Positions 13,233 through 32,317 of a stretch of 39,977 bases of DNA are shown in pieces. The notes beneath the pieces are model-generated. The model saw nothing but the letters and a program-made list of their open reading frames with translations, made no database searches and was not told where the DNA came from. Each line of letters begins with the position of its first letter. Position 1 is the first letter of the stretch. Origin of the DNA: Deltaproteobacteria bacterium (GTDB taxonomy: Bacteria; Desulfobacterota; Desulfobulbia; Desulfobulbales; Desulfobulbaceae); NCBI GenBank assembly GCA_024280455.1, contig JAJRQC010000068.1:1-39977 (forward strand), read 5' to 3'. The position numbers were made by a program, and so were the translations under genes.

Positions 13233-15467
13233 ATGAGTGTTCTGATTGGAGAGATGATCGTATGTGGACAACGCACGGGTGGTGAAGTACAGTTACGGAT
13301 TTTCGGTGACGAATTTTATGCGCGGTATGAGACCCCTGACGGCTATACCGTAGTCTTTGATAAAGACTACGGCGGCTATTGCTACGCCCTGCTTGCGGCC
13401 GGGAGATTTGTCTCAAGCGGGGTGCCGATAGGCAAACCTCTGCCCGCCGGTTTGCGGAAACATCTCAAAGAAGCCCCGGAGGTGCGCAATGAAAAATTCG
13501 CACAAAACTACAGCCTGTTCCGGGCGCCGGAGATTGATCCTGATTCCAGCGGCACCCGTACCCTGGGCCCGGATGGAGGGTTGCTGGACGGGCGGAAATT
13601 AAACCAGGGCACTGTTCGCGGTCTCACCATTCTGGTTGATTTTGATGACGTTACAACCGCGATTTCCCGCGAAGCCGTTTATGAGATGTTTAATGAAACC
13701 GGCTATACCGCCAACGGGAACTACTGTTCGGTCAACGAGTATTTCAAGATCATCTCCAGCGGTAAACTCAACTATGTGAACATGGTCGTCGGGCCGGTGA
13801 AGCTGTCAAAGCCCCGGAGCTATTATATCAGTAACCTGCTGGTCAGAGAGGCGCTTGATATCGCGGTTAACCGGTTCAATGTCGATCTTGCCGACTTTGA
13901 TTCGCGCGGTGAGGGTATTGTCGATGCGATCAATATTCTCTATGCCGGAAACTCACAGTATAACGGCCAGCTCTGGCCCCACAATTCCGTGGCCGGGTAT
14001 CGATACGGTTCGGTTCGCACTCATTATTATCAGCTCACCGGGCTGGGCATGCATCCGGTCGACTTGCGGATTGGAACGATCTGTCATGAGAACGGCCATC
14101 TGCTCTGCCGCTTCCCGGACATGTATGATTACGGTAAACGTGACGGTGACTCTGAAAAAAGCCAGGGCATCGGCTGCTACTGTCTGATGGGCTCGGGAAA
14201 CCATCTCAACGACCGCCGCACGCCCTCTCCGGTGTGTTCATACCTGCGCCAGCTTGCCGGCTGGGTCGATACGGTCGTCCTGCTTGACTCTCCGGGGAAA
14301 TTCATTGCCGGGCACGGCGCCTACGATACGGTCTGGAAGTATGAGACCACCATTCCCAATGAATACTTTATGGTTGAGAATCGCAGTCGAATTGGCCTGG
14401 ATGCCTATCTGCCGGCAAGCGGGCTGGCGGTCTACCACTGTGATACGCTTGGTTCCAACGAATGGCAGAGCGGTACCCGCAACAACCACTACCAGTGTGC
14501 GCTTCTTCAGGCCGACGGCAGTCTTGATCTTGAGAATAACCGGAATGCCGGGGATGCAACCGATTTATTCAGCGAAGTATCCGGAGTTGCGCTTTCAGAT
14601 GCAACACCCCCTTCTTCCCGAATGTGGAACGGCACCGATTCCGGCCTGATGCTCTCGGAAATAGACGGGGCCGGGCAGGATATGAGCTTTACGGTCGGAG
14701 AACCGCGCGATCAGCCGGTTGTCGAACTCGAAACCTCGCCCAATTTGCTTATTCCGGATAACAACCCGGATGGGGTGACCAGTATTTTGAGCGTCGGCTC
14801 TTTTGGGGAACTTGTTGATATCTCGGTGAAGGTCGAGATTATCCACAGCTGGATCAGCGACTTGAAGGTAACGCTGGTTGCACCGGACGGCACTGAAGTC
14901 GTGCTGCACAATCACCAGGGCGCTGACGGCGATGACATTTCTACGGTTTACACTGCTGCAACCGCACCTGAGCTGACAAATCTTAATGGCGGGGAGATCC
15001 AGGGTATCTGGTCGCTGGTCGTGGTTGATACCGCCTCGCAGGATGTCGGTCGGCTTGTGCGCTGGGGCCTTGTCATTGGCTATCAAAAGAGTTCAGACAG
15101 GGTAATGGAGAGTGCCGATCCTGATCTTGCCATTCCTGATGCCGACCCGCAGGGGATAGCCAGTGTCATTCAGGTTCAACAGGGCGGCAAGGTGAGAGAT
15201 ATCGTGGTCGGCATTGATATCAGGCATACCTATATCGGTGACCTGCGAGTGGATCTTGTCTCGCCTTCGGGACAGGTTGTGCGGCTGCATGATCAGACCG
15301 GAGGGTCGACCGATAATCTCAAACGGTCCTATGATACAACCTCGACCCCGGGTCTTGGTGATTTTATCGGCCTGTCGATGCAGGGGGACTGGCAGTTGCA
15401 GGTACGTGATCTGGCCTCTCTGGATACCGGGACGCTTGCCGCCTGGTCGCTCACCCTTGAATATTGA
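13233..15467 (+). CDS. M6-family (immune inhibitor A-like) metalloprotease with two P-domains
   Basis: A 744-residue zinc protease. The N-terminal region (about 1-90) contains GDEFYARYETPDGYTVV, typical of the M6 propeptide region. The catalytic domain has HENGH (285-289) followed by the FPDMYDYG motif, matching the family's HExGHxxGxPD-type zinc site; VENRSRIGLDAYLPASGLAVYH is also family-typical. Two proprotein-convertase P-like beta domains follow (about 505-617 and 625-744), each beginning with LxIPDxxPxG and ending with a WxLxVxD then WxLxIxY pattern. There is no signal peptide, and an in-frame stop 24 nt upstream of ATG 13233 rules out a longer start. The ribosome site GGAGG is good. 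Either it stays in the cytoplasm or export is non-classical. Confidence 0.88.
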   Translation: MSVLIGEMIVCGQRTGGEVQLRIFGDEFYARYETPDGYTVVFDKDYGGYCYALLAAGRFVSSGVPIGKPLPAGLRKHLKEAPEVRNEKFAQNYSLFRAPEIDPDSSGTRTLGPDGGLLDGRKLNQGTVRGLTILVDFDDVTTAISREAVYEMFNETGYTANGNYCSVNEYFKIISSGKLNYVNMVVGPVKLSKPRSYYISNLLVREALDIAVNRFNVDLADFDSRGEGIVDAINILYAGNSQYNGQLWPHNSVAGYRYGSVRTHYYQLTGLGMHPVDLRIGTICHENGHLLCRFPDMYDYGKRDGDSEKSQGIGCYCLMGSGNHLNDRRTPSPVCSYLRQLAGWVDTVVLLDSPGKFIAGHGAYDTVWKYETTIPNEYFMVENRSRIGLDAYLPASGLAVYHCDTLGSNEWQSGTRNNHYQCALLQADGSLDLENNRNAGDATDLFSEVSGVALSDATPPSSRMWNGTDSGLMLSEIDGAGQDMSFTVGEPRDQPVVELETSPNLLIPDNNPDGVTSILSVGSFGELVDISVKVEIIHSWISDLKVTLVAPDGTEVVLHNHQGADGDDISTVYTAATAPELTNLNGGEIQGIWSLVVVDTASQDVGRLVRWGLVIGYQKSSDRVMESADPDLAIPDADPQGIASVIQVQQGGKVRDIVVGIDIRHTYIGDLRVDLVSPSGQVVRLHDQTGGSTDNLKRSYDTTSTPGLGDFIGLSMQGDWQLQVRDLASLDTGTLAAWSLTLEY

Positions 15468-16555: not shown

Positions 16556-16615
16556 TGTAAATTTTGTAGCCGTCCTTTTCTCATTGGTGACACGTTGAAA
16601 CAGCAGGTCTCGTCG

Positions 16616-17062
16616 TTGCGATTTCGCAGCCGATCGGAACATACCCTGGATACCAAGGGGAGGCTCAATATCCCGAGTCGTTTTCGCGAGGTGTTATGTG
16701 AGGAATATACCGAGACGGTGGTGGTGACGAACTGGCATAAAAGTTTGAAGGCCTTTCCCGTTGCGGTCTGGGAAGAGCTCGAAGAAAAACTCCAGACCGA
16801 GGGCCGCATGCAGCCCGGTATGGGCGATTTTGTCCGTTACGTCATTTCCGGCGTCACGGAATGCACCCTGGATAAACAAAAACGTATCCTGCTGCCCGCT
16901 CCCCTGCGAAATGAGTTCAATATCGGTAAGGAAGTCGTGTTGAACGGGATGCTGGATCATTTTGAGATATGGGACAAGGCGGCCTGGCAGCTGGAAAGCC
17001 GGCGTACCCGGGAACGGTTTGCGGATTTTGAGCCCGGCTTGTCATCTCTTGGTATTTTGTAG
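16616..17062 (+). CDS. mraZ: Transcriptional regulator MraZ
   Basis: A 148-residue protein with two AbrB-like SpoVT repeats: FRSRSEHTLDTKGRLNIPSRFREVL and, in the second half, CTLDKQKRILLPAPLRNEF, each holding the DxxGR-like DNA-contact pattern. The family N-terminus (MFRG...) aligns with RFRS, so I chose TTG 16616, which has AGCAGG 8 nt upstream. A TTG at 16595 would add seven unconserved residues. It is the first gene of the division cluster, and its operator-like repeats lie in its own leader. The stop is TAG, and rsmH begins 6 nt later. Confidence 0.9.
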   Translation: MRFRSRSEHTLDTKGRLNIPSRFREVLCEEYTETVVVTNWHKSLKAFPVAVWEELEEKLQTEGRMQPGMGDFVRYVISGVTECTLDKQKRILLPAPLRNEFNIGKEVVLNGMLDHFEIWDKAAWQLESRRTRERFADFEPGLSSLGIL

Positions 17063-17068
17063 CTGATT

Positions 17069-17962
17069 ATGGCCCAAAATGCGGCTCAACTGCATGTTCC
17101 GGTCATGGTAGGCGAGGTTCTGGAATGTCTTCAGCCCAAACCTGACGGGGTGTATGTGGACGGCACACTCGGGCTTGGCGGTCATGGGCTGGCCATCCTG
17201 GAAAAGTCGGCACCGTCGGGCGGACTGGTGGGCTTTGAGTGGGATCGTGAAGCGGCAGCATATGCCGCTGACCGGCTGACCGGGTTTAAAGAGCGTGTGC
17301 GGATTATTCGGGCATCCTATGCCGACCTGCTTCAAGAGCTGGAAGAAATAGGGGTTGAAGGTGTTGACGGTCTGCTGGTTGACCTTGGGGTATCATCATT
17401 GCAGTTTGACCGGGGAGAACGGGGATTCAGTTTCCAGGTGGACGCGCCTCTGGATATGCGGATGAATCAGGATCTCAAGGTCACTGCCGCCGATATTGTC
17501 GCCCGGAGCAATGAAGGAGAGCTTGCCGATATTTTGTACCATTACGGTGAGGAGCGTCAGGCACGGCGTATTGCCCGTTTTATCTGTGAGGCAAGAGTGG
17601 TGGAACCCGTACAGACGACCTTCCAGCTGGCCAACCTGGTAAAAAAAGCAGTTCCCCGGCGGTTTCATCCGGACAGGATTCATGTGGCAACCAGAACGTT
17701 TCAGGCCTTGCGCATCGCCGTCAACCGGGAACTGGACAACTTAGTCCGGCTGTTGGAAGACGGGCCTGAAGCTTTGAATCCGGGCGGACGGTTTTGTGTG
17801 ATAACCTTTCATTCGCTGGAAGATAGAATCGTAAAGCAGGCCTTCAGGAAGGACAGCAGGCTCAAGCTGCTGACAAAAAAGCCGGTTGAGCCCGGAGCAG
17901 ATGAGATCGCGGTAAATCCACGGGCAAGAAGTGCACGCCTGCGAGGGGCGATTAAAATTTAG
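17069..17962 (+). CDS. rsmH: 16S rRNA m4C1402 methyltransferase RsmH (MraW)
   Basis: A 297-residue SAM-dependent N4-cytosine methyltransferase acting at the 30S P-site. Features: HVPVMVGEVLECL, SAM loop YVDGTLGLGGHG, VDGLLVDLGVSSLQFD, RGFSFQVDAPLDMRM, ARRIARFI, FQALRIAVNRELDNL and FHSLEDRIVKQAF, all in family order, ending with the basic NPRARSARLRGA. Usual length. The start at ATG 17069 lies 6 nt after mraZ, implying coupling. Confidence 0.97.
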   Translation: MAQNAAQLHVPVMVGEVLECLQPKPDGVYVDGTLGLGGHGLAILEKSAPSGGLVGFEWDREAAAYAADRLTGFKERVRIIRASYADLLQELEEIGVEGVDGLLVDLGVSSLQFDRGERGFSFQVDAPLDMRMNQDLKVTAADIVARSNEGELADILYHYGEERQARRIARFICEARVVEPVQTTFQLANLVKKAVPRRFHPDRIHVATRTFQALRIAVNRELDNLVRLLEDGPEALNPGGRFCVITFHSLEDRIVKQAFRKDSRLKLLTKKPVEPGADEIAVNPRARSARLRGAIKI

Positions 17963-18026
17963 TTGGAATGTGGTGTCTGCGGTGGGGAACCGCAGACAGG
18001 AAGAACCCAGGGAAGAGGAGAGAGCA

Positions 18027-18386
18027 ATGATAGTAAATACGCAGATCAGGCCGTACCGCTGCCGCACAAGGTCGGTGGGAATACGTCAGCGGGTGGCCGC
18101 AAACAACTCCTGTGAAATGTCGGTGCCGTTGCGACGGGCTGTTGTTCTTGTTCTCTGTGCTGCTCTTTTTCTGGTTGTGGCCTGCGGCCAGTTTCTGCAC
18201 TGGAGAATCATGAACGGTATCCAGGTTGCCGAGCAGCTGCAGAGCGTCTCATCGGATCTTGCTGTTGAAAATATGACTCTGCTGGCCCGGCGGGCTCGCC
18301 TGATGTCTCCGGAGCACGTTAAGGCCGTGGCTGCCGTACGACTTGACCTCCATGAACCCGGCAAAGGCCAGGTTCATCGTTTGTAG
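18027..18386 (+). CDS. ftsL: Cell division protein FtsL
   Basis: A 119-residue bitopic protein. A basic cytoplasmic tail (1-37) is followed by one membrane helix (about 38-56, AVVLVLCAALFLVVACG) and a periplasmic heptad-rich segment consistent with the FtsL coiled coil. It ends in the PEHVKAVAAVRLDLHEP region that follows the coil in FtsL proteins. I chose ATG 18027 because AGAGGAG lies 5-8 nt upstream; the longer ORF from 17931 lies inside rsmH. Identification rests on topology and position between rsmH and ftsI, since FtsL sequences diverge strongly. It would pair with FtsQ and an FtsB-like protein. Confidence 0.8.
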   Translation: MIVNTQIRPYRCRTRSVGIRQRVAANNSCEMSVPLRRAVVLVLCAALFLVVACGQFLHWRIMNGIQVAEQLQSVSSDLAVENMTLLARRARLMSPEHVKAVAAVRLDLHEPGKGQVHRL

Positions 18387-18395
18387 TCACGAGGC

Positions 18396-20228
18396 ATGTA
18401 TAACATCGCGGTCAGGAAACAGAAGCGCAGGGAACGACGCCTGTTTGCGACCGGAGTGATCATGGTTTTGCTGGCAGTGGCTGGCGGAGTTCTGTATCGA
18501 TTACCCGTCTCCCTCCAGGATATCAGCAGGATTTTTCAGCTTGCTGCCGGCAAATTTTCTCTCTCTCCAGCGGACACAATGTCCGCTGGAGATGTTTTGA
18601 GGGGAACGATTTATGACCGTAATTTCAATGAATTATCTGTTTCTTATCAGCTGTTTTCCCTCTATGTGCATCCCGCAAAGATCAACAACCACAGCGATGC
18701 CGCCCAAAAACTGGCTGAAATAATCGGGGTTGCAAAGGGTGCTGTAGAAGCACAGCTCAAGCAGTCCCGGCGAGTCGTTGAACTGGCTGACGATCTTGAT
18801 GGCGACCAGGTAAAGGCTATTAAGAATCTCGAGATTGAGGGCCTTTACTGCACAAGTTCTGAAAAACGTTTCTATCCCGAGCACACTGCGGCACCCCATG
18901 TCCTTGGATATACCGTTGACGGTGTTGGACTCTCCGGGGTGGAGAGAAAGTACGATATCCTCCTGCAGCCGGGAGAGTATCAACCCGTTGATGTGCCGGA
19001 CGTGGATTTTAAAGGCAACACTGTTGCGGGGCAGAAGAGAACGGATCTGATTTTGACCCTGGATATAGAGCTGCAGAAGGCCATAGATAAAGAGTTGAAT
19101 CGACTGCTGCGTGAGCAGGGCGCCGCCGTCGGAATGGGGTTGCTGATGGAGCCTGCATCCGGGCGTATTCTGGCATTCTCAAACCAGCCCTCCTTTGACC
19201 CGAACTACTTCTGGAAATCCGAGGGGGTTACACGGAAGAATACCCTGTACAGCCCACGCTTCGACCTCAATCTGGCCCGCCCCCTTCTGGTTCGTGCGGC
19301 GGCAAGAATACAGGATGGGGAACAGTTTGCGCCCATGTTGCCGCAAACCCTTGCCGCACCGGATTTCGGACTCAGTGCAGAGCAATACGCAGACGTATTA
19401 AACCGGATAGAGTTCCTGCAGCCGGTTTTGCAAAGCCTGCCTTCTGATGTGCCGTTTAACGACGAACCGGCAGGGGGGGGGCAGAAAAATATCAGTCTGA
19501 TGCAGCTTGGCGTCGGTCTGGCCAGTTTGATCAATGGAGGGTGGAGGGTAACTCCGACTTTTGTGGACTCGGTCTATGACCAACAGCATGGGCAACGCTT
19601 TAGTCTGAAAAAAGAGGCCATAACCCGCACCCATGTCCTGAACCCGGCCATGGGGGTTGCTGTTCGCCGCGAGCTGCTGACCCATTTTACCGGTCAACAA
19701 AAAGAAAAGCTTCTGGCTTTCTCGGGGACGAGTAAGCGGGTTGTACCCGGTGGTACCATAACCAGATATGTGCAACAGCAGCTCTTTGTCGGCATGATAC
19801 CCCGAGAAAAACCGACAATGCTTTTGATTATGGCCCTTGAACGGAATACTCTTGATCCTGTACCGAAGGGGGAAAAGATCCGCTCCCTTTCATCGGTGGG
19901 AAAAACACTGTTAACAGATCTGTATGCAGGGGCACAGCAGGAACAGATTGCAGAGTATCCTACCTCCAGAAATCGGGAGAACTTTGCCCGTTTCCTCATC
20001 AGCCGCCGGGTTGAATATACCCGTTCACCAGGAAATATTGCAGTAAATAAGGTCGATATGCCGGAGTTGGTTGGAATGAGCCTGAGAAAGGGGTTGCAGC
20101 AGCTTAATCAGTTTAAGCTCCGGATTACCATCAAGGGCAGTGGGCGGATTGTTTCCCAGTCTCCCCGTGCCGGTGAGCGATTAGGGGATGTTGAGCGCTG
20201 TTTACTCACCCTGGAATCAGCGATTTGA
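18396..20228 (+). CDS. ftsI: FtsI/PBP3-like protein with a degenerate, probably inactive transpeptidase domain
   Basis: A 610-residue class B penicillin-binding protein by architecture: a cytoplasmic stub, a membrane helix (about 17-36), the pedestal domain (GTIYDRNFNELSVS at 70-83; RFYPEHTAAPHVLGYTVDGVGLSGVERKYD at 158-187), a transpeptidase-like fold (about 210-515) and a C-terminal PASTA domain (553-610). In active enzymes EPGSTFK carries the nucleophile; here the same place reads FDLNLARP (289-296), with neither Ser nor Lys. The SxN loop region is shortened and contains no such motif. KTGT is replaced by FSGTS (442-446). All three catalytic motifs are therefore gone, yet the frame is open and the fold-defining GVGLASLINGGWRVTPTFV is kept, so this is a maintained pseudoenzyme rather than a decayed gene. 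It probably keeps structural roles with FtsL and FtsQ. Confidence 0.85.
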   Translation: MYNIAVRKQKRRERRLFATGVIMVLLAVAGGVLYRLPVSLQDISRIFQLAAGKFSLSPADTMSAGDVLRGTIYDRNFNELSVSYQLFSLYVHPAKINNHSDAAQKLAEIIGVAKGAVEAQLKQSRRVVELADDLDGDQVKAIKNLEIEGLYCTSSEKRFYPEHTAAPHVLGYTVDGVGLSGVERKYDILLQPGEYQPVDVPDVDFKGNTVAGQKRTDLILTLDIELQKAIDKELNRLLREQGAAVGMGLLMEPASGRILAFSNQPSFDPNYFWKSEGVTRKNTLYSPRFDLNLARPLLVRAAARIQDGEQFAPMLPQTLAAPDFGLSAEQYADVLNRIEFLQPVLQSLPSDVPFNDEPAGGGQKNISLMQLGVGLASLINGGWRVTPTFVDSVYDQQHGQRFSLKKEAITRTHVLNPAMGVAVRRELLTHFTGQQKEKLLAFSGTSKRVVPGGTITRYVQQQLFVGMIPREKPTMLLIMALERNTLDPVPKGEKIRSLSSVGKTLLTDLYAGAQQEQIAEYPTSRNRENFARFLISRRVEYTRSPGNIAVNKVDMPELVGMSLRKGLQQLNQFKLRITIKGSGRIVSQSPRAGERLGDVERCLLTLESAI

Positions 20229-20235
20229 GCGTTCT

Positions 20236-23200
20236 ATGCAGCTGATTGATCTTGAAAAGATACTTGGTGTTGCCGGGAAAGGGAACAGCCGGGTAACCGG
20301 GCGGGTCACGGCGATTGTGTCTGATTCGCGTTGGGTTATCCCGGGCTCGGTGTTTGTTGCGGTGCGTGGAACAGTCATTGACGGCCATGATTATATCTCT
20401 CAGGCCATGGAAAAGGGATGCCTGGCGGTGGTGGCCGAGCATTGCCCTGACATGGTTTCTGAGGCAATTTCCTGTTTTCAGGTTCGGGACAGTCATGCGG
20501 CACTCGGTCGGCTGGCTGCAGCCTGGAACGGACACCCCGGTCACAGGCTGAAGCTCATAGGGCTGACCGGGACCAACGGTAAGACCACGACTTCCTGGTT
20601 GATTGAAAAAATTCTCCAGCAGGCCGGTTTTCAAACCGGAGTTATCGGGACCGTGAATTATCGCTATCAGAACATGGAAGGAAATATGGTCGTTCGCCCG
20701 GCCCCTCTGACCACCCCTGGTCCTGAGCAGCTACAGGCCCTGCTCCGGGAAATGGCGGATGCCGGCGTAAGTCATGTGTTGATTGAGGTCTCATCCCATG
20801 CTCTCGATCAGAAGCGGCTGGCAGGAATCCGGTTTGACGTGGCCCTGTTTACCAACTTAACCAGGGACCATCTGGATTACCATCAGACCATGGATTCATA
20901 TTTTACAGCCAAAAAGTTGCTTTTTTCAAACTATTTGAAAGATTCAGGTACGGCCGTGGTTGTGGTTGATGCAGAAGCCGGGAATGAGAATTACGGCAAC
21001 AGGCTTGTAACTGAGCTTGTCGGAAGAGATGTTTCGACGGTTGGCTTTGCAGAGGACTGCACCATCAGGTGTGCCCGTTTGAGGCAGGATATTAACGGAA
21101 GTTCCTGCAAGCTTTTCATCTGCGGCGAGCAGCAGGAGATTACCTCGAATCTGACCGGAACCCATAACGTGTTGAATATGCTGGCAGCTGCCGGGGTGGC
21201 CAACGCCTTACAGGTTCCCGGGCGGCAGATAAGGGCAGGGCTGGCAGCTGTCGACCGGGTGCCGGGCAGGCTGGAGCGGGTGCTTCTCAGCGGTATTTCC
21301 CCGGATAAATTGGCTGCCGTCTTTGTTGACTATGCCCATACTCCGGATGGATTGGAAAATGTGCTGGCCACCATGAAGAGCATGACCTCCGGGCGGCTTA
21401 TCTGTGTGGTCGGCTGCGGTGGCGATCGAGACACGGGCAAACGGCCGCTCATGGGTGAAATCGCCGGTCGTTTTGCAGATATGGCTATTCTTTCATCGGA
21501 TAATCCAAGAAGCGAGGATCCTATGGCAATCATAGCAGAAATTGAACGGGGTATTCAGCGGACGGGCAGCAAAAAACTATCGCAGGATGCTTTGTTTTCT
21601 TTGCAGGCAGATCAGCACGGTTACCTGGTGGAGTCGGATCGGCGCAAGGCCATTCATCTGGCCTGCAGTATTGCCCGGCCCGATGATGTGGTGGTCATCG
21701 CTGGCAAGGGCCATGAGCAGTATCAGATAATCGGCAGAGATAAAAAATTCTTTGATGATCGCCTTGAGGCAAAAAACGGTCTTGCCGCCTGGACAACTGA
21801 ACATCTGCTTGCGGCAACCGGCGGCAGGCTGGTTGGAAGAAACAGTCGAGAGGTGCTTACGGATATCTCAACCGATACAAGAACGGTTACGGCCGGGGAC
21901 GTCTTTGTTGCCCTGGTCGGCGAGAGTTTTGACGGTCATGATTTTCTTGATACCGCTATTAAGCGCGGGGCCGGAGCTTTGATTGTTGAACGGGAATTTT
22001 CCGGAGCAGGTGAGAGGATTCCAGTCATCGTGGTTGAGGATACTCTGCAGGCTCTGGGTGATCTTGCCGCCTACAGGCGCCGGATACTGGGAGAAGATGT
22101 CAAGATCGTTGCCATTACCGGCAGTTCCGGAAAGACCACGGTCAAGGAGATGGCAGCGGCTGTTTTTGAGCAGTATTACGTTCATCCGGAGTCGGCACCG
22201 GAGCCGGTGTTGAAGACCCATGGAAATTTTAACAACCTGATCGGGCTGCCCCTTTCCCTGCTGCCGCTCTCTGCCAAGCACAGGGTCGCGGTGCTGGAAA
22301 TGGGTATGAACAGGTCTGGTGAGATCGCCCGGCTGACTGAAATCGCTGATCCCGATATCGCCTGCATTAACAATGTCCAGGCCGCCCATCTGGAAAAACT
22401 GGTCGATATCAATGGAGTTGCCCAGGCAAAGGGCGAGCTGTTTGCCGGACTGCGCCCGGATGCGGTCCGGATCATTAATTATGATGATCCGGAGGTGGTC
22501 AGGCTTGCCTCCAGGTATCAGGGCCGTACCATAGGCTATGGCGTGACAGCTGCAGGCCGGCGGTATAAACCGCTGGTGCGGGTAACCAGAATCACCGGTC
22601 TTGGCGCCAAGGGGACACGGTTCACCCTTCACATCGGTGACTGGAAAAAACGAATAACCCAGGCCGTGCCCGGAACCCATAACGTGCATAATGCCGCTGC
22701 CGCTGCCGCAATCTGTACGGCTGCCGGTGTGGATGCAGAGAGCATTGTCAAGGGCTTGACTCTCCATCAGAACGTGGACAAGCGGATGGAGTTTATGAAC
22801 CTGCCCGGTGGTCTGCGGGTACTCAATGACAGTTACAATGCCAATCCCTCTTCCATGGCGGCGGCACTGACAACCGTGGTCTCTTTCGGAACCGACTGCC
22901 GGAAGGTGGCGGCCTTGGGCGATATGCTTGAGCTCGGAGAAAATGCAGTCTCAGCCCATCGTGAGATCGGTCGGCTGGCGGCGGAACTTGGGTATACTAT
23001 GCTGGCTGTGACCGGCGAGTTCAGCCCCGAGGTTGCTCGTGGCGCCCGCGAGGGCGGGATGACCAGAGATCAGGTCGTGATCCTTGCCGATACGATGGCC
23101 ATTGCCGACTGGCTGTATCATCTTTTGATCAGCGGGCGGCTCAGTGAAGGCGACTGGCTGCTGGTCAAGGGATCCAGGGGGATGCGGATGGAAAATCTCC

Positions 23201-23247
23201 TGGTCGAACTCCGGAATCGTTTTGATCCAGCTCCCAGTGAGGCGTAA
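20236..23247 (+). CDS. murE-murF: MurE-MurF fusion: UDP-MurNAc-tripeptide synthetase / D-Ala-D-Ala ligase
   Basis: One 1003-residue protein joining two successive Mur ligases. The MurE half (1 to about 510) has the ATP loop GTNGKTT (112-118), HLDYHQT, and DNPR (422-425), the motif for meso-diaminopimelate addition. The MurF half (about 525-1003) opens with a second UDP-substrate domain ([17 protein letters not shown]), the ATP loop GSSGKTT (629-635), [16 protein letters not shown], and [11 protein letters not shown]. Both active sites look intact, so UDP-MurNAc-dipeptide could be converted to the pentapeptide precursor on one polypeptide. I chose ATG 20236, just after the ftsI stop; an upstream ATG at 20188 would overlap ftsI. 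A join of these adjacent genes is known in other bacteria. Confidence 0.95.
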
Positions 23248-23252
23248 ATTCC

Positions 23253-24332
23253 ATGCTCTATCACCTTCTCTATTCGCTTCATACCCAGATCAGCTGGCTC
23301 AACGTCTTTCGTTATATCACCTTTCGCTCCATTGGTGCGGCAATAACCGCGTTTCTCATTCTCTGTATTCTAGGGCCGAAATTTATCCGCTGGCTGCAAC
23401 TCAAGCAGATAGGGCAGGTGGTTCGTGCCGACGGCCCTGAATCGCATCTGAGCAAGCAGGGGGTTCCGACAATGGGCGGGGTTCTGATTCTGGCCGCTAT
23501 GACGATTTCGACCCTGTTGTGGGCGGATCTGACCAGCGGTCTGGTCTGGCTGCTGATCGGAATCAGTCTGTTTTTCGGCGCTATCGGAGCGATAGATGAT
23601 CTGCAGAAGGTGACCAAGGGCAACAGTAAGGGGCTTTCCCCCCGCGGCAAGCTGCTGCTCCAGGTTGCCGGGGCCTCGATGGTCGGCCTGTATCTGATTC
23701 TGCATCCGGAATACGACGGCAGGCTGGCTATCCCGTTTTTCAAAACCTTTCATCCGGATCTTGGCTGGTGGTATATCCCGTTCACTGTTCTGGTCATTGT
23801 CGGGGCCTCCAATGCGGTCAATCTGACCGACGGTCTTGATGGGCTGGCGGCAGGACCGGTGATGATCAGCGGTTCGGTGTATCTGATTTTTTCTTATGCC
23901 GCCGGTAACGTCATTGTGGCCCAGTATCTGCAGATTCCCTATGTTCAGGGCGCCGGTGAGGTGGCGGTGTTCTGCGGAACTTTGATCGGGGCCTGCCTGG
24001 GATTTCTCTGGTTTAACGCCTATCCGGCCGATATTTTCATGGGCGATGTGGGCTCGCTTTCCCTCGGCGGAACCCTGGGCGCGGTATCGATTATCACCAA
24101 GCAGGAATTTCTGCTCGCCATTGTCGGCGGGATTTTTGTTATGGAAGCGGTCTCGGTTATCCTTCAGGTCGGCTATTTCAAGATGTCGGGTGGTAAGCGT
24201 ATTTTTCTCATGGCCCCGATTCACCACCATTTTGAGAAGAAAGGCTGGCAGGAACCCAAGGTCGTGGTCAGGTTCTGGATTATTTCCATTATTCTTGGCC
24301 TGCTGGCCCTGGCAACCCTGAAGCTGCGTTGA
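23253..24332 (+). CDS. mraY: Phospho-MurNAc-pentapeptide translocase MraY
   Basis: A 359-residue integral membrane enzyme with about ten helices that makes lipid I from UDP-MurNAc-pentapeptide and undecaprenyl phosphate. Characteristic segments: [16 protein letters not shown] at the N-terminus, [11 protein letters not shown], the catalytic region [49 protein letters not shown] and the cytoplasmic histidine loop [13 protein letters not shown]. Usual length. It starts 5 nt after murEF and its stop abuts murD. Confidence 0.97.
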
Positions 24333-24334
24333 TC

Positions 24335-25681
24335 ATGGAGCTTACCGCAGGCACAAAGGCCGTTGTTCTTGGCCTTGGGACTTCAGGACTTGCCGTACTC
24401 AGATACCTGCAGAGCCGGGGCCTTGAGGTAGCGGTTTCAGAATTTCGCAGTGATGACGACCTGAGCGATAATGAGAAAGCCGTCTGCCGGGGGCTGGCGT
24501 TTGAGACCGGCGGCCATAGTGAAAAATTTGTTCTCTCGGCCGATCTCGTGGTGCCGAGCCCGGGCGTACCGCTGGATCTGGATGTGCTTAAGGCGGCCCG
24601 GGAAAGAGGTATTCCCATTGTCGGAGAACTGGCCCTTGCCGCCGGGGAAATTTCGGTTCCGGTGATCGCGGTTACGGGATCAAACGGAAAAACCACGGTC
24701 ACCGGCCTTATCGGTGAGCTCCTGCAGAGCAGCGGTTTCAGGCCGTTTGTCGGCGGCAATATCGGGAAACCACTGCTGTCGTACCTGTTTGAGGCGCAAC
24801 AGTATGATGTGGTGGTCCTGGAGTTGTCCAGTTTTCAACTGGATTTATCGGGTGCATTCAGGCCGGATGTCGGTCTACTGCTCAACCTGTCGCCGGACCA
24901 TCTGGACCGTCACGGTGATATGGCGAGCTATACCCGGGCAAAACAACGAATTTTCTGTAATCAGGAGCCCGGGGATACCGCGATTTTAGGCGGTGATGAT
25001 CCCCTGGTCATGGAATCGGCCCCGGGGTTGAGCGGCCGGGTTTACACTTTTGGTTATGGCCCTGACAGCGAGGCCCGGATAGTTGAAGATCGGGTTATCG
25101 TAACCCGGGACGGGCGTGAAGATATTTTTGAGCTTAAGGAGACCCGGCTCAACTCCAGGGTCAATCGCTTAAATGCGGCCGCCGCTATTCTGGCGGCAGG
25201 ATGTGTCGGTGCAGATTCCGAGGGTATCAGGAAGGGGCTTTCAAACTATACCCCGCCGCAGAACAGGATGACCCCGGTTGCCGAGATTAACGGAGTTTGG
25301 TTTATCAATGACTCAAAGGCCACCAATGTCGGAGCCATGGCTGCCGCCCTTGAGAGCTGTCCCTCCAGCGTGATCCTGCTTGCCGGGGGCAGAGACAAGG
25401 GCGGAGATTTTTCCGCCATACGGGAACTGGTCAGGGAAAAGGTTGAGACAATGCTCTGCATCGGTGAGGCAGCAAAAAAACTGGTTAACACCTTCTCCGA
25501 TGTTGTTGCGGTCGAAGAGGCAAAGGATATGGCTGCCGCAGTCGACAGGGCAGCCTCACTTGCAAAGCCCGGCTGGATTGTTCTGCTGGCTCCGGGCTGT
25601 GCAAGTTTTGATATGTTTTCCGGTTACGCCGAACGAGGCCGGGTGTTTACCGGATTGGTTCACAATTTGAAGGAACGTTGA
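24335..25681 (+). CDS. murD: UDP-MurNAc-L-alanine:D-glutamate ligase MurD
   Basis: A 448-residue cytoplasmic ligase. The UDP-binding N-terminus is VVLGLGTSGLAVLRYL; the ATP loop is VTGSNGKTTVTGLI; LELSSFQLD, LNLSPDHLDRHG, FINDSKATNVGAM and LLAGGRDKGGDFSAI are the family blocks. ATG 24335 is preferred; a TTG at 24329 overlapping the mraY stop would add two residues. In the usual dcw order ftsW would follow, but here the next gene is a small CxxC protein. Confidence 0.96.
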   Translation: MELTAGTKAVVLGLGTSGLAVLRYLQSRGLEVAVSEFRSDDDLSDNEKAVCRGLAFETGGHSEKFVLSADLVVPSPGVPLDLDVLKAARERGIPIVGELALAAGEISVPVIAVTGSNGKTTVTGLIGELLQSSGFRPFVGGNIGKPLLSYLFEAQQYDVVVLELSSFQLDLSGAFRPDVGLLLNLSPDHLDRHGDMASYTRAKQRIFCNQEPGDTAILGGDDPLVMESAPGLSGRVYTFGYGPDSEARIVEDRVIVTRDGREDIFELKETRLNSRVNRLNAAAAILAAGCVGADSEGIRKGLSNYTPPQNRMTPVAEINGVWFINDSKATNVGAMAAALESCPSSVILLAGGRDKGGDFSAIRELVREKVETMLCIGEAAKKLVNTFSDVVAVEEAKDMAAAVDRAASLAKPGWIVLLAPGCASFDMFSGYAERGRVFTGLVHNLKER

Positions 25682-25694
25682 AAAGAGGTAAGCG

Positions 25695-25922
25695 ATGACA
25701 AAGATATGTTGTGTCTGTCAGCGGATTGAACAGGGCGAATACTGGAAAGATGAAAACGACTATGTATTTGCCTCTAATGAACGGGTGACCCACGGCTATT
25801 GCCCACTCTGTTTTGACGTGGTGATGTCTGATCTGATGGAGTATATTAGCGAAACCCATCCGCAGGCAAAGGCAGATGGAGTCGCAGCAGGCGTCGATCA
25901 CCGGACTTCCGCATGCGCCTGA
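25695..25922 (+). CDS. Small two-CxxC putative zinc-binding protein in the ftsW position
   Basis: A 75-residue protein with two Cys pairs, CCVC (residues 5-8) and CPLC (36-39), the second preceded by THGY. This spacing suits a zinc ribbon or rubredoxin-like knuckle (inference). I see no signal peptide or membrane segment. The start is ATG 25695 with AGAGGT about 6 nt upstream, and the stop lies 10 nt inside murG, so it is translationally coupled. The open frame, ribosome site and overlap argue for a real gene. I do not recognise a named family; short proteins with a CxxC and a second HGxCPxC motif are seen in deltaproteobacteria, from memory. Its location between murD and murG is where ftsW normally lies. 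Confidence 0.75.
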   Translation: MTKICCVCQRIEQGEYWKDENDYVFASNERVTHGYCPLCFDVVMSDLMEYISETHPQAKADGVAAGVDHRTSACA

Positions 25923-26989
25923 TCGTGACCGGCGGCGGAACAGGTGGACATCTTTTCCCTGCCATTGCCGTGGCCTGCGGAGTGCGGCAGCGAACTCCCG
26001 ACAGTGAGATTCTTTTTGTCGGCACCGGCAGGCAGATTGACAACCGGGTTCTTGCCGGGCTTGGATTCAGCCGCGAAATCCTCAGTTTTTCCGGGGTCAA
26101 GGGGCTGGGGATTTCCGGCGCCCTACGTTCGGGATTACGGTTGCCGCAGGCCGCATATATGGCCGCAAAAATCATACAGCGTTTCCGGCCGGATCTGGTT
26201 TTTGCAGTCGGCGGCTACGTGACCGGACCGGTGCTGCTGGCGGCAAAACTGTTCCGGGTACCGATCTGTATCCATGAGCAGAATTCCGTGCCGGGTCTGG
26301 CCAACAGGCTGGCCGGAAAAATTGCCGACCGGGTCTGTATCTCGCTCCCCTGCAAGCCGCCCTTTGCAGAGAAAAAAACCGTGTTGACCGGCAATCCGGT
26401 CCGGGAGGAGATTCTTGGAGCTGCCGAAGAAAAAAATGTATCGGCAGACAGGGAACTGACCCTGCTGATTCTCGGCGGCAGCCAGGGGGCGCACCGGGTC
26501 AACGCGCTTATGCTTGAGGCGGCGGCCTCTCTGCACAAGCAGGGTAAAAAATTATATATTATCCATCAGACAGGGCGGACCGATGAGGAAATGGTTCGCC
26601 AGGGGTACGAAAAGCTTGGGGTTCAGGCTGAGGTTGGGGACTTTTTTTCTGACATGGCCGGGCTGTACGGCAGGGCGGATCTGGTCATCTCCAGGGCCGG
26701 GGCAACAACGCTTGCCGAGCTTGCGGTCATGGGGCTGCCGGCACTGCTGATACCCTATCCCTTTGCCGCCGATGACCATCAGACCACCAATGCCGACTAT
26801 TACCTGCAGGCAGGCGGGGCCATGGTTTTTCCTGAACATGAACTTGACGGCGATCGATTGAGCAGGGAAATTAGCGTTCTTATCCGGGATCACAAGCAAT
26901 TACAGGCCATGGCTGCAGGAATGAAGTCCCTGGGTAAGGCCGATGCCACTGAAAAAATTGTCGACCTCTGTGAGCAACTGGCAGCATAG
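25913..26989 (+). CDS. murG: Lipid II synthase MurG (UDP-GlcNAc transferase)
   Basis: A 358-residue peripheral GT-B enzyme adding GlcNAc to lipid I. It has the N-terminal GGGTGGHLFPAIAVA loop, VGGYVTGPVLLAAKL, IHEQNSVPGLANRL, the second glycine loop ILGGSQGAHRVNALM, and the donor site SRAGATTLAELAVMGLPALLIPYPFAADDHQTTNA. Usual length and complete. The ATG at 25913 lies within the end of the preceding small gene. A 498-bp non-coding insert separates it from murC. Confidence 0.97.
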   Translation: MRLIVTGGGTGGHLFPAIAVACGVRQRTPDSEILFVGTGRQIDNRVLAGLGFSREILSFSGVKGLGISGALRSGLRLPQAAYMAAKIIQRFRPDLVFAVGGYVTGPVLLAAKLFRVPICIHEQNSVPGLANRLAGKIADRVCISLPCKPPFAEKKTVLTGNPVREEILGAAEEKNVSADRELTLLILGGSQGAHRVNALMLEAAASLHKQGKKLYIIHQTGRTDEEMVRQGYEKLGVQAEVGDFFSDMAGLYGRADLVISRAGATTLAELAVMGLPALLIPYPFAADDHQTTNADYYLQAGGAMVFPEHELDGDRLSREISVLIRDHKQLQAMAAGMKSLGKADATEKIVDLCEQLAA

Positions 26990-27487: not shown

Positions 27488-28855
27488 ATGTATAACAAAA
27501 CCAAACAAATACACTTTGTCGGGGTCGGCGGTATCGGCATGTCGGGCATTGCCGAACTGCTGCTGAACCTGGGCTACCAGGTCAGCGGTTCCGATCTGCG
27601 TGATTCCGAGATTACCCGCAAGCTGACCGCACTCGGGGGCTCGATTTATGCAAGTCATGACGCCCAGTGGGTAGATGGGGCCGATGTGGTCGTCACCTCT
27701 TCGGCGATCAGTCCGGATAATCCTGAGGTCCTGGCGGCAAGAGAGGCCCATATTCCGGTGATTCAGCGGGCCGAGATGCTGGCCGAGCTCATGCGTCTGG
27801 CCAAGTACGGGATCGCTGTTGCCGGTAGTCACGGCAAGACCTCAACCACCTCCCTGGTTGCAACGATTCTTGCCGAGGCCAGGCTTGATCCGACCATCGT
27901 CGTCGGCGGCAAAGTAGACAGTCTTGGCGGTAACGCCAAACTGGGCTGCGGTGATTTTCTGGTCGCTGAAGCCGATGAAAGTGACGGCTCTTTTCTCAAG
28001 CTTTCTCCGGTTATCGAAGTGGTGACCAATATTGATCTTGAACACCTCGATTATTACCGGGACATTGAGCATATTAAAGATGTCTTTCTCCAGTTTATTG
28101 AAATCCTGCCCTTTTACGGGGTGGCTATACTCTGCTTTGATGATGAAAATATTGCCCGCCTGCTGCCGAAGATCCAGCGGCGTATCATTACCTACGGCTT
28201 GAGCGAGCAGGCGGATCTGTATGCCACCCGGATTGAAAGCCATGGCATGGAGACCAGTTTTGATGTTCGTTTCCGGGACCGTGAACTGGGCCGGATTAAA
28301 CTCAACCGTCCCGGCAGGCATACGATCTATAATTCTCTGGCCGCAATCGGAGTGGCGCTGGAACTCGACATAGAGTTTCCGGTCATTGCCCGGGCTCTGG
28401 CAACATTTGACGGGGTGCAGCGTCGTCTGCAGATCAAGGGCGAACGTGATGGTGTTCTGGTGGTGGACGATTACGGACATCATCCAACCGAAATCAGGGC
28501 CACCCTTGACGCGGTTCGTGAAGGCTGGCCGGAAAGGCGCCTGGTGGTAGCCTTTCAGCCCCATCGCTATACCCGGACCCAGGCCCTTTTTGATCAGTTC
28601 CAGACCGCCTTTCATCGGGCCGATCTTTTGATTTTAACCGATATCTATGCGGCCAGTGAACAGCCCATTGAGGGGGTTACCAGTGAGCACCTGCTGGCGG
28701 CGATAAAGAGCCACGGCCAGCGTAATGTCCATTACGTTCCCACGGTCGAAGAGCTGCCGGCGGCACTTGCGCCCATGCTCCAGGAGGGTGATCTTCTCTT
28801 GACCCTGGGGGCCGGAAATATTGTTCGGGCCGGAGAACAGCTGCTGAAGGTGTAA
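27488..28855 (+). CDS. murC: UDP-MurNAc:L-alanine ligase MurC
   Basis: A 455-residue cytoplasmic ligase starting the peptide stem. Blocks: [18 protein letters not shown] for the UDP substrate, the ATP loop [35 protein letters not shown], the [12 protein letters not shown] motif, and [16 protein letters not shown]. Complete and of usual length. The start ATG 27488 sits directly behind a heptamer array. The 157 nt after it, before murB, hold only a 31-codon ORF (28862-28957) with no family features. Confidence 0.97.
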
Positions 28856-29012: not shown

Positions 29013-29936
29013 ATGCTGAACAGTCGCCAACAACAGGAGATACGCGCATGTTGTGATGCCGTATCTTTTGATGTCTCAATGGCGGCGTATTCCACCTTCA
29101 AGGCCGGGGGGCAGGCTGCAGCACTGGCAGAAGTTCAGAACCTGGACCAGTTGTCGGCCCTGCTTGAATACTGCCGCAGGGAGGTGATTCCCTGGCGGGT
29201 CATCGGCCGGGGATCCAATATACTGGTCATGGATACCGGATTCAATGGTGTTCTCTTTCGGCTTGGTGGTGATTTCAGGACAGTGCAGCTGGAAGATGAA
29301 TCTGAAACCACCGTCATTTCCGCAGGCGGCGGCTGTCTGCTGGCGGATCTGCTTGGCTGGTGCAGGCGGCACGGGTTGGGCGGATTGGAGTTTCTGGCCG
29401 GGATCCCGGGCGGCGTCGGGGGCACGGTACGGATGAATGCCGGGGCCTTTGGTCATTCAATCGGCGAGTTCCTCCAGGTGGTCTCGATTATCGGGGCCGA
29501 TGGCGTTGTGCGGAAAAAAACAGCGACTGCACTCAGTCTTGACTACCGCAGCTGCATGGTTGAAGGGTATGGCCCCAGTCAGGCCATTATTCTGTCTGTT
29601 ACCCTGCAGTTACAGGAGGCCGATGGTGAACAGATCGCAGAAATTATGCGGAACTATATGCTGGAACGAAAAAAAAATCAGCCCCTGAGCTCTCCATCAG
29701 CCGGATCGTTTTTTAAAAATCCGGAGGGTGATTATGCCGGACGCCTGATTGAAGCAGCCGGGTTAAAGGGGGCAAGAGTCGGCGGGGCAATGGTTTCCCC
29801 GGTCCATGCTAATTTTATTGTCAACGATGGCGGTCAAGGTACAGCTGCGGATATTCTGGAGCTGATGCACAAGGTCCAGGAAAAAGTAAGGAAGCAGACC
29901 GGCATTTTCCTTGAGCCTGAAGTCCATATCTTTTAA
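29013..29936 (+). CDS. murB: UDP-N-acetylenolpyruvoylglucosamine reductase MurB
   Basis: A 307-residue FAD/NADPH enzyme completing UDP-MurNAc. It shows MAAYSTFKAGGQA, the FAD loop VIGRGSNILVMD, EFLAGIPGGVGGTVRMNAGAFG, the catalytic Ser in PSAGSFFKNPEG, and the C-terminal SPVHANFIVNDGGQGTAADILELM. It lacks the C-terminal extension of the long E. coli-type enzyme, so it is the shorter type II form. GGAAGAGG precedes ATG 29013. No ddl gene follows, unlike many dcw clusters. Confidence 0.96.
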   Translation: MLNSRQQQEIRACCDAVSFDVSMAAYSTFKAGGQAAALAEVQNLDQLSALLEYCRREVIPWRVIGRGSNILVMDTGFNGVLFRLGGDFRTVQLEDESETTVISAGGGCLLADLLGWCRRHGLGGLEFLAGIPGGVGGTVRMNAGAFGHSIGEFLQVVSIIGADGVVRKKTATALSLDYRSCMVEGYGPSQAIILSVTLQLQEADGEQIAEIMRNYMLERKKNQPLSSPSAGSFFKNPEGDYAGRLIEAAGLKGARVGGAMVSPVHANFIVNDGGQGTAADILELMHKVQEKVRKQTGIFLEPEVHIF

Positions 29937-29969: not shown

Positions 29970-30899
29970 ATGGCAGCATACACGCCTAAATATTCGCGCA
30001 AGCCTTCGGGGCGGAAAGGCATTGGGCGATTTATACCATGGATACCTCTGCAGAGAATAAAAAAGTCCTCCACTGTCGCTAATCCGCAGGCCGGGCTGGT
30101 TGGCGGTCGACAGGAAAAACAGGCCCGCAGGCTGTCGCGAACCGGTCTTCCGGCCTTTGTCCTTTGTGTGCTTGTTGGCACCGGCGGCTGGTTTTCATAT
30201 CGACTGCTGGTCGCCTCGAATATTTTCCGTTTGACTGAAATTTCGGTGATCGGAAATCGCAGTGTCCGTGATCGGCAGATTGTCGAGGCCACCGGCCTGA
30301 CTCAGGGCACGAATCTTCTTGGGTTCGATGTCGCGACCGCTGAGACAAAGGCACAGGCGCTCAGCTGGGTTGATCAGCTTGATATCCAGATAGCCTGGCC
30401 ATCCAGAGTTGTGATTAATGTTCGCGAACATCAGCCCCTGGCCCTGGTTACCCTTGAAGGGGACAAGGGACGGCAACTGCACTACATCGATAAGGACGGG
30501 ACAGTGTTTGCGCAGGTCATACCCGGGCAGGATATTGATTTTCCCGTGATTACAGGGCGGTTGGCCGATAGCGGTCTTGAGGGAGACCAAATTGCCGTCG
30601 GTACTCCGGCCGCCGGGGCTCTCAGGTTTCTCCAGCTTGCCGCCCGAGGAAATGCGATCCTGCCGGTGCAGGCAGTTTCCGAAGTGCATGTTGATCCGGA
30701 GCTTGGACTGATCGTCTATCTGGTTGATCGGCCCTTTCCCATCTATATGGGTGAGAATCGGATACGGACAAAGTATTATCGGCTGGTCAAAATTCTGGAG
30801 CGCTTGTACCGGAAGAAGCAAATAGAGGGAATAAAAGAAATCAGAATGGATTATACGGAAAACAAGGTGCTGGTGGCAATGCTTCAGCCCGGCAGGTAA
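29970..30899 (+). CDS. ftsQ: Cell division protein FtsQ
   Basis: A 309-residue bitopic divisome protein. It has a long basic cytoplasmic tail (1 to about 50), a membrane helix near 55-75 (TGLPAFVLCVLVGTGGWFSYRLLV), then a POTRA domain (FRLTEISVIGNRSVRDRQIVEATGLTQGTNLLGFD) and the FtsQ beta domain (AWPSRVVINVREHQPLALV, LHYIDKDGTVF). It bridges cytoplasmic FtsA/FtsZ events with FtsL and FtsI in the periplasm. GGGAGG precedes ATG 29970; ftsA begins 6 nt after its stop. Confidence 0.92.
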   Translation: MAAYTPKYSRKPSGRKGIGRFIPWIPLQRIKKSSTVANPQAGLVGGRQEKQARRLSRTGLPAFVLCVLVGTGGWFSYRLLVASNIFRLTEISVIGNRSVRDRQIVEATGLTQGTNLLGFDVATAETKAQALSWVDQLDIQIAWPSRVVINVREHQPLALVTLEGDKGRQLHYIDKDGTVFAQVIPGQDIDFPVITGRLADSGLEGDQIAVGTPAAGALRFLQLAARGNAILPVQAVSEVHVDPELGLIVYLVDRPFPIYMGENRIRTKYYRLVKILERLYRKKQIEGIKEIRMDYTENKVLVAMLQPGR

Positions 30900-30905
30900 C
30901 TGGCA

Positions 30906-32132
30906 ATGCAAGAGAACGACGAACAACAGGAATCCGGCGAACTGGTTGCCGGTCTTGATATAGGGACCACCAAAATCTGTGTGGTCATCGGTGAAGTCTT
31001 TGGTGATCGGGTCGACGTTATCGGCGTCGGCACCTCAGCCTCTTCCGGCATGAAGAAAGGCGTAGTGGTCAATATCGAGGCCACGGTCAAGGCCATTCGC
31101 GAGGCCGTGGATGCGGCTTCGGATATGGCCGGCTGCGACATTGAAACCGTGTATGTCGGGATTGCCGGTAATCATATCAAGGGCTTTAATTCCCCCGGTA
31201 TCCTTGCCATCAATAACCAGGAGATCCGGGAACGGCATATTGAGGAGGTCATCCAGGCCGCTCAGACGGTAAAGATTTCAGACAATCAGCAGATTATCCA
31301 CGTCCTGCCTCAGGAGTATATGGTCGATGACCATACCGGGATCCAGAATCCCCTGGGCATGACCGGGGTCCGGCTGGTGACCAATGTCCATATCGTCACC
31401 GCAGACAATACCTCCCTCCATAACCTGGTGACGAGCTGTAATCGTGCCGGACTCGGGGTCTCGGAGATAGTCCTTGAATCGGTGGCCTCCTCCTATACGG
31501 TCCTGGACAAGGATGAGATGGAGCTTGGGGTGGCGCTGCTGGATATCGGCGGCGGGACCACGGATCTGGCCGTGTTCTGTAACGGAACCATCAAGCACAC
31601 CTGGGAACTGGCCCTGGGGGGGAACAACCTGACCAATGATCTTTCAGTCGGGCTGCGTACTCCGCTGCAGGAGGCGGAAGAACTGAAATATCTGTATGGC
31701 GGAGCGCTCTCGTCGATGATCAAGGAAAATCTGATTATCGAAGTTCCCACCGTCGGTGATCGGAAACCGCGCAAGGTCTCCCAGCGGGTCATGGTTGAGA
31801 TTCTCGAGGCAAGGATTGAGGAAATCCTGCAGATGGTCAATAAAAACATCTGCACCTCGGGATATCGGAACCGGATCAACTCGGGTATAGTGCTGACCGG
31901 CGGAACCTCGCTCCTGGCCAATATCGTTGAGATGGCGGAGCAGATTTTCGATATGCCGGTTCGGATGGCATACCCCCAGGGGATCGGCGGTCGGGTGGAA
32001 GATGTCCGTTCCCCCCGCTGTACAACCGGGGTTGGTCTGGTTCTCTATGGAAGTCAGGCCTCACACAGCGGCCCCAGGGAAGGCGGCGGTGTGGTCAACC
32101 GGCTTAAAAACTGGGTGAAAAATATTGTCTGA
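30906..32132 (+). CDS. ftsA: Cell division protein FtsA
   Basis: A 408-residue actin-fold ATPase that tethers FtsZ to the membrane. Motifs: VAGLDIGTTKICVVIGEV (phosphate 1), the SHS2-type inserted subdomain around VEATVKAIREAVDAASDMAGCDIETVYVGIAG, LLDIGGGTTDLAVF (phosphate 2), GGNNLTNDLSVGL, and VLTGGTSLLANIVEMAEQIFDMPVRMA. The C-terminal amphipathic helix is visible as VVNRLKNWVKNIV, the membrane anchor. Coupled with ftsQ. Confidence 0.96.
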   Translation: MQENDEQQESGELVAGLDIGTTKICVVIGEVFGDRVDVIGVGTSASSGMKKGVVVNIEATVKAIREAVDAASDMAGCDIETVYVGIAGNHIKGFNSPGILAINNQEIRERHIEEVIQAAQTVKISDNQQIIHVLPQEYMVDDHTGIQNPLGMTGVRLVTNVHIVTADNTSLHNLVTSCNRAGLGVSEIVLESVASSYTVLDKDEMELGVALLDIGGGTTDLAVFCNGTIKHTWELALGGNNLTNDLSVGLRTPLQEAEELKYLYGGALSSMIKENLIIEVPTVGDRKPRKVSQRVMVEILEARIEEILQMVNKNICTSGYRNRINSGIVLTGGTSLLANIVEMAEQIFDMPVRMAYPQGIGGRVEDVRSPRCTTGVGLVLYGSQASHSGPREGGGVVNRLKNWVKNIV

Positions 32133-32185: not shown

Positions 32186-32317
32186 CAAACAAAATGCAGC
32201 CGCACGGTTCATTGCTTTTCTGCCGGCGGTTCCGGATGTATTTTTTGTTGTGTCTGTAGTGTGTTGTATGGATGGGGACGGTTTACACAACCATCAATAA
32301 TGTCATCGGGGAAAAAC

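Follow-up and report, generated by a model that had tools for sequence, protein, structure and literature searches.

A dcw-encoded FtsI without transpeptidase motifs and the accompanying absence of FtsW in Desulfobulbales

How does a bacterium build its septum when the transpeptidase encoded among its division genes has lost the motifs on which catalysis depends? The question is raised by the FtsI (PBP3) of the division and cell wall (dcw) cluster in a Deltaproteobacteria bacterium of the family Desulfobulbaceae, order Desulfobulbales (GenBank assembly GCA_024280455.1). The 39,977 nucleotides of contig JAJRQC010000068.1 (positions 1 to 39,977) are called the window here, and all features described in it lie on the + strand. 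An earlier note on this sequence had read the gene at 18396..20228 as an intact class B penicillin-binding protein (PBP) deprived of SxxK, SxN, and KTG, a conserved pseudoenzyme acting as a scaffold or allosteric part of the divisome, with septal crosslinking left to another enzyme. The data presented below indicate that bacteria of this order probably build the dividing wall in a way that departs from the textbook.

The gene is one open frame of 610 codons, and its product (pseudo-FtsI) is encoded between ftsL/mraW and murE, as expected for FtsI. A probable membrane helix, judged by eye from hydrophobicity, spans residues 17-36 (18444..18503), and a phmmer alignment to an FtsI structure chain begins at residue 21. 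The pedestal (PBP_dimer, PF03717, residues 68-173, 18597..18914) was found at 3.9e-14, above the Pfam cut-off, and the well-conserved PASTA domain (PF03793, residues 553-596, 20052..20183) at 3.9e-7, so that the open frame with pedestal and PASTA domain described earlier holds. Between them, a remnant of the transpeptidase domain is recognized (PF00905, residues 362-485, 19479..19850; 2.5e-9, profile positions 159-282 of 299). Alignment with eight active FtsIs, that of E. coli and seven other intact ones, agreed with the motif reading of the note: FDLNLARP stands at the SxxK site (residues 289-296, 19260..19283), where the catalytic columns read LARP and the nucleophile is lost, the SxN columns fall in a gap, and KTG is replaced by FSG (residues 442-444, 19719..19727). 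All three motifs stood at their columns in 8/8 of these active controls. The region matching E. coli FtsI 286-440 has 112 residues, as compared with 155-159 in active FtsIs. A pattern search found K[ST]G nowhere in the whole protein, and a complete but displaced triad, which the note had wished to see checked, is therefore ruled out. A transpeptidase domain with SxxK, SxN, and KTG, by which FtsI and other class B PBPs are recognized, is not what this protein carries. Among solved structures, SpoVD and FtsI chains match best, with the top alignments extending over the pedestal and the front portion of the transpeptidase domain.

The motif loss is a property of the order rather than of one assembly. 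The nearest named relative is an ortholog from a Desulfobulbus metagenome-assembled genome (83% identity), and orthologs are also encoded by D. rhabdoformis, placed by NCBI in Desulfobulbaceae, Desulfobulbales, Thermodesulfobacteriota, and by Candidatus Electronema. In the family, an ortholog was detected in 68/73 genomes, and the five without it (G035, G042, G053, G054, and G065) are 69-87% complete. The motif survey comprised 130 proteins or pieces, from the 68 family genomes (one in two pieces), four named loci, at least three of which duplicate genomes already in the set, and 57 genomes of 14 other families of the order, hand-chosen rather than random. Many of the surveyed genomes are fragmented, and absence in a single genome is weak evidence. 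With E. coli FtsI as the reference frame, the motifs of all proteins were read by alignment column. S..K was present in 0/127 rows reaching the SxxK site; the nucleophile motif is lost in all 66 family genomes (of the 68) in which the site is reached and in 57/57 genomes of the 14 other families. S.N occupied the SxN columns in 3/126 rows spanning the transpeptidase domain, and one of the 128 rows reaching the KTG columns reads KSG (G092), inside a long insert and without S..K. No protein of the survey has a full triad at the motif columns, where residues vary freely among pseudo-FtsIs. Correctly spaced triads elsewhere, in 3/130 whole proteins, are attributed to chance; their S..K falls outside the transpeptidase domain, near residues 3, 69, and 136. 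One SxxK..KTG pair of 57 in the pattern search is likewise attributed to chance (shuffled sequences give 5%). In the alignment with the active controls, the transpeptidase stretch counts 110-123 residues in families f1 and f12, as against 145-167 for the remaining families of the order and 96-152 in pseudo-FtsIs from outside it. The motif loss is independent of this shortening, because motif-less proteins of the other families keep 145-167 residues. The KTG of one outside-order protein (G257) belongs, by eye, to a GFGNKTGI element off the catalytic column and also counts as a chance match.

Long open frames of pseudo-FtsI are found in most genomes examined, and the dN/dS measurement proposed in the note (ratio of nonsynonymous to synonymous substitution rates; Nei-Gojobori, eight pairs) points to purifying selection. 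The whole gene gave 0.13-0.31, the N-terminal part 0.13-0.24, the transpeptidase remnant 0.06-0.34, and the C-terminal part 0.07-0.51 (seven pairs with changes there). Among 62 aligned family sequences, the pedestal, the part preceding SxxK, and the PASTA domain are the most conserved and the former catalytic core the least, with a mean majority-residue share of 0.38-0.54 in the core vs 0.58-0.69 in the pedestal. At least 90% conservation was reached in 27/128 columns of residues 68-195 (pedestal) and 17/53 columns of residues 553-605 (PASTA). With its order-wide presence, purifying selection, and lack of a displaced triad, the conserved pseudoenzyme of the note is well supported by the sequences: the catalytic residues were lost, and the gene was conserved.

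FtsI is one half of the septal synthase, and the other half is missing as well. In the window, the place of ftsW after murD is empty (25682..25912): a 75-amino-acid (aa) Cys-rich open reading frame (ORF) without a Pfam hit (CCVC...HGYCPLCF, 25695-25922) is followed by murG, with no gene of the SEDS (shape, elongation, division, and sporulation) family. Comparable small ORFs stand between murD and murG in G037, G133, G119, and G108. The sole SEDS protein of the source genome is RodA, adjoining MrdA (PBP2), and no cognate FtsW for pseudo-FtsI was found there. In the order, a SEDS match was obtained in 223/242 genomes searched, exactly one in 215 of the 223 (counted by eye); among the matches listed, it adjoins MrdA in 59/61 family genomes with both placed, the two being on different contigs in the other two. 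In a tree with long branches and a single RodA reference, ten single SEDS proteins cluster with E. coli RodA, separate from six dcw-type SEDS proteins (100/100). A survey of 20-kb stretches from 20 chosen genomes (that of G058 stops at murD) showed a SEDS gene in 0/14 pseudo-FtsI clusters reaching ftsZ and in 5/5 active-FtsI clusters. Eight order genomes have two or three SEDS matches (G011, G071, G018, G024, G112, G141, G172, and G175). A relocated FtsW was rejected in four of them: the extra matches are contig-end fragments in G011 and G071, a split frame in G018, and, by eye, a second RodA-like copy in G024, standing in tandem and accompanied by part of mrdA. The absence of ftsW, along with zipA and ftsN, was also reported for four Desulfobulbaceae genomes (PMC7873302). 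The earlier note had missed the FtsW loss; with it, the problem is no longer one of crosslinking only but concerns the septal synthase in both its halves.

Apart from ftsW, the dcw cluster is normal. FtsQ, FtsA, FtsZ, FtsB, and an FtsL-like ORF are retained, and no sign of another FtsI was seen. The FtsL-like ORF (17931..18386, between mraW and ftsI, with a possible ATG start at 18027) has, by eye, a hydrophobic stretch and a short coiled coil, and no Pfam match; an ORF that looks of this kind by eye occupies the position of ftsL in the window and in each of the 15 pseudo-FtsI clusters read, and ftsL was called absent in many Desulfobulbaceae (PMC7873302). FtsB scored above the cut-off in 64/71 family genomes, and in 67 at E 0.001. 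The note had offered a second class B PBP as a possible crosslinking enzyme; as a dedicated second FtsI this is not supported. In the source genome, MrdA/PBP2 is the only class B PBP found with its motifs intact, and order genomes have at most two PF03717 proteins (match in 238/242, read by eye), the second of which was motif-tested in the genomes of the motif survey only. A strong transpeptidase fragment in G024, considered as a second FtsI, looks, on inspection by eye, like a class D beta-lactamase. The source genome also encodes three class A PBPs (Transgly and Transpeptidase domains), in whose sequences SxxK and KTG can be seen, and gives two matches to YkuD, the L,D-transpeptidase family. 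One class A PBP, of 1142 aa (L084, G000:C141:7500-13000), shows GSTFK and GKTG, matches only part of the transpeptidase profile, and has its Transgly domain separated by a long stretch from the recognized transpeptidase part; it is a candidate septal synthase.

The combination is not confined to Desulfobulbales. The phylum sample comprised 297 genomes, 285 of them outside the order, and of these 213 have two or three SEDS proteins, 67 one, and five none (by eye). One genome was probed from each of 15 one-SEDS and five two-SEDS families. All five two-SEDS representatives have an intact FtsI. Among the 15, six have MrdA and an FtsI lacking motifs at the catalytic columns, so that both losses are shared by six other families of the phylum; two have only an intact FtsI-type protein and seven only an MrdA-type protein. 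The two, f32 and f99 (L233 G258 and L234 G475), present the opposite loss, one SEDS with an intact FtsI-type protein as the only class B PBP, and MrdA was not found in either genome. The MrdA-type protein of G366 (L228) has SIFK and no K[ST]G by pattern, through either an altered third motif or a frame effect. When six dcw proteins were used for a tree with E. coli as the root, firm groups emerged for Desulfobulbales (100/100) and for five of the outside families (99/99), and a branch supported at 64/64 sets all 15 pseudo-FtsI genomes apart; with midpoint rooting, the branch uniting Desulfobulbales and five outside families has support of 46. A single origin of the two losses is allowed by the E. 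coli-rooted tree, not shown.

We consider it quite probable that FtsI is kept in this order as a non-catalytic structural or allosteric subunit of the divisome, while RodA-MrdA, class A PBPs, or both build the septum. It is proposed that, in the Desulfobulbales ancestor or before it, the dcw FtsI became a pseudoenzyme along with the loss of FtsW. The membrane helix and pedestal would hold the FtsQ-FtsL-FtsB platform, the PASTA domain would contact wall material or partners, and RodA-MrdA and/or class A PBPs, recruited or activated via this platform, would make the septal wall. A scaffold or allosteric role fits the retained parts of the protein, and we infer it, along with the identity of the septum builder, from precedents. 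Inactive PBP 2B sustains division in B. subtilis, PBP 3 then being essential (PMC5656894), and in the complex of P. aeruginosa, FtsL makes contact with the pedestal of FtsI (PMC7614612); the divisomes of C. difficile and Wolbachia, discussed below, offer others. In S. aureus, septal plate formation requires the PASTA domains of PBP1 (PMC9426605). Several observations weigh against this proposal. The transpeptidase activity of S. aureus PBP1 is also essential (PMC9426605). Seven one-SEDS families (L215, L217, L219, L220, L224, L225, and L230) gave no FtsI match, and therefore FtsW-less cells may manage without FtsI. With FtsW gone, the regions contacting it would be expected to be relaxed, yet the membrane helix (mean majority-residue share 0.52) and linker (0.62) do not stand out. 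In G051 and G208, both single-contig genomes, sequencing error or real breakage has split the frame, and the highest dN/dS given above, 0.51, comes from the C-terminal part of a single pair. The AlphaFold model, built from seven sequences only, has a pLDDT (predicted local distance difference test) of 45, too poor to reveal the fold of the transpeptidase remnant, and on sequence grounds an unconventional nucleophile may be conceivable.

The alternatives differ in what they assign to pseudo-FtsI and to the remaining synthases. RodA-MrdA might serve both elongation and division, with pseudo-FtsI and FtsQLB merely bringing the pair to midcell, an explanation to which we give a little less than an even chance. 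In the genome, RodA is the sole SEDS protein and MrdA the sole class B PBP found with intact motifs; RodA and PBP2, with a suggested septal role, persist in Wolbachia supergroups that have lost FtsI, FtsW, FtsL, and FtsB (PMC10591338), and the FtsI helix docks on FtsW much like that of PBP2 on RodA (PMC7614612). However, in C. difficile, RodA-PBP2 is assigned to elongation and a class A PBP to the septum (PMC10693644). That arrangement is itself the precedent for a second possibility, equally serious and likewise just short of even: a class A PBP would be the septal synthase, anchored or regulated by pseudo-FtsI and FtsQLB. The three class A PBPs of the source genome, with their visible motifs, are consistent with it, as is the repression of the E. 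coli PBP1b glycosyltransferase by FtsBLQ (PMC6325244), although no class A PBP was identified among the dcw genes scanned. It can also be supposed, more tentatively and in our view with a rather low probability, that RodA, the single SEDS protein, swaps its class B subunits and has in pseudo-FtsI an alternative partner without catalytic activity. RodA would then elongate with MrdA and, with pseudo-FtsI under the control of FtsQLB, polymerize septal strands, to be crosslinked by class A PBPs or L,D-transpeptidases.

Two further explanations deny pseudo-FtsI a structural role or leave it an enzymatic one. It could be a slowly decaying relic without a function of its own, held only by operon structure, as might be suggested by the overlap of ftsI with murE-murF (20188 vs 20228), the split frames, and the poor conservation of the former core. 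This is improbable: dN/dS stays well under 1 in every segment, the pedestal and PASTA columns are conserved, and open frames prevail. That the protein still acts as a transpeptidase via an unrecognized active site is very improbable indeed. The C-terminal part of the fold is still recognized by PF00905, but S..K is missing from every row at its site, the few spaced triads have their S..K outside the domain, and the motif columns drift freely.

The other genes of the cluster are mraZ (16595-17062), mraW/rsmH (17069-17962), a murE-murF fusion of 1019 aa (20188..23247) whose start overlaps the end of pseudo-FtsI, mraY (23253-24332), murD (24329-25681), murG (25913-26989), murC (27488-28855), murB (29013-29936), ftsQ (29970-30899), ftsA (30906-32132), and ftsZ (32261-33514). 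Among the 20-kb stretches surveyed, the murE-murF fusion recurs in two f12, two other f1, and three outside-order genomes, and the two genes are separate in the genomes of f3, f5, f6, and f15. Upstream of the cluster, 13233-15467 (+) encodes a 744-aa protein with a C-terminal proprotein convertase P-domain and a weak M6-peptidase match.

An order of sulphur-cycling bacteria, cable bacteria included, that has FtsZ, FtsA, FtsQ, FtsB, and an FtsL-like protein with a dead FtsI and no FtsW represents a natural separation of FtsI structure from catalysis, and offers a direct test of the divisome's need for FtsI. Accounts of septation in cable bacteria have followed E. coli as the model for FtsI activity (PMC7873302), a picture that would have to be revised, and an unusual response to FtsI-directed beta-lactams is predicted. 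If the swap of partners on RodA were true, polymerase activation and crosslinking, coupled in model bacteria, would be separated across the whole order, cable bacteria among them.

Compared with FtsI/PBP3, pseudo-FtsI shares the dcw position, a probable membrane helix (by eye), the pedestal, a remnant transpeptidase fold, and a PASTA domain, which occurs in some FtsIs; it differs in lacking SxxK, SxN, and KTG, in a genome without the FtsW partner. The inactive PBP 2B of B. subtilis is likewise a dead division PBP supporting division structurally, a role that can only be proposed here; that protein, however, is a laboratory mutant in need of PBP 3 (PMC5656894), whereas pseudo-FtsI occurs naturally throughout the order, where no FtsI-type helper PBP was found and FtsW is missing. 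C. difficile also lacks a canonical FtsW/FtsI pair for vegetative septation, but there the dcw synthases are kept with sporulation roles (PMC10693644), while here the dcw SEDS protein is absent and the class B PBP dead. In Wolbachia supergroups BCD, FtsW was lost and RodA and PBP2 kept, as in Desulfobulbales; those bacteria are obligately intracellular and have lost FtsI, FtsL, and FtsB too (PMC10591338), in contrast to the order studied here, whose assemblies measure 1.3-6.3 Mb and keep FtsQLB along with the dead FtsI. Among the papers listed from open-licence literature, preprints excluded, none on FtsI motif loss was found. The survey of Desulfobulbaceae and cable bacteria that found ftsW absent in four genomes of the family counts FtsI among the recruited divisome proteins, and the passages of it consulted do not mention motif loss (PMC7873302). 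The FtsW loss had thus been known in part; novelty appears to lie in the conservation of a dead FtsI and in the coupling of both losses.
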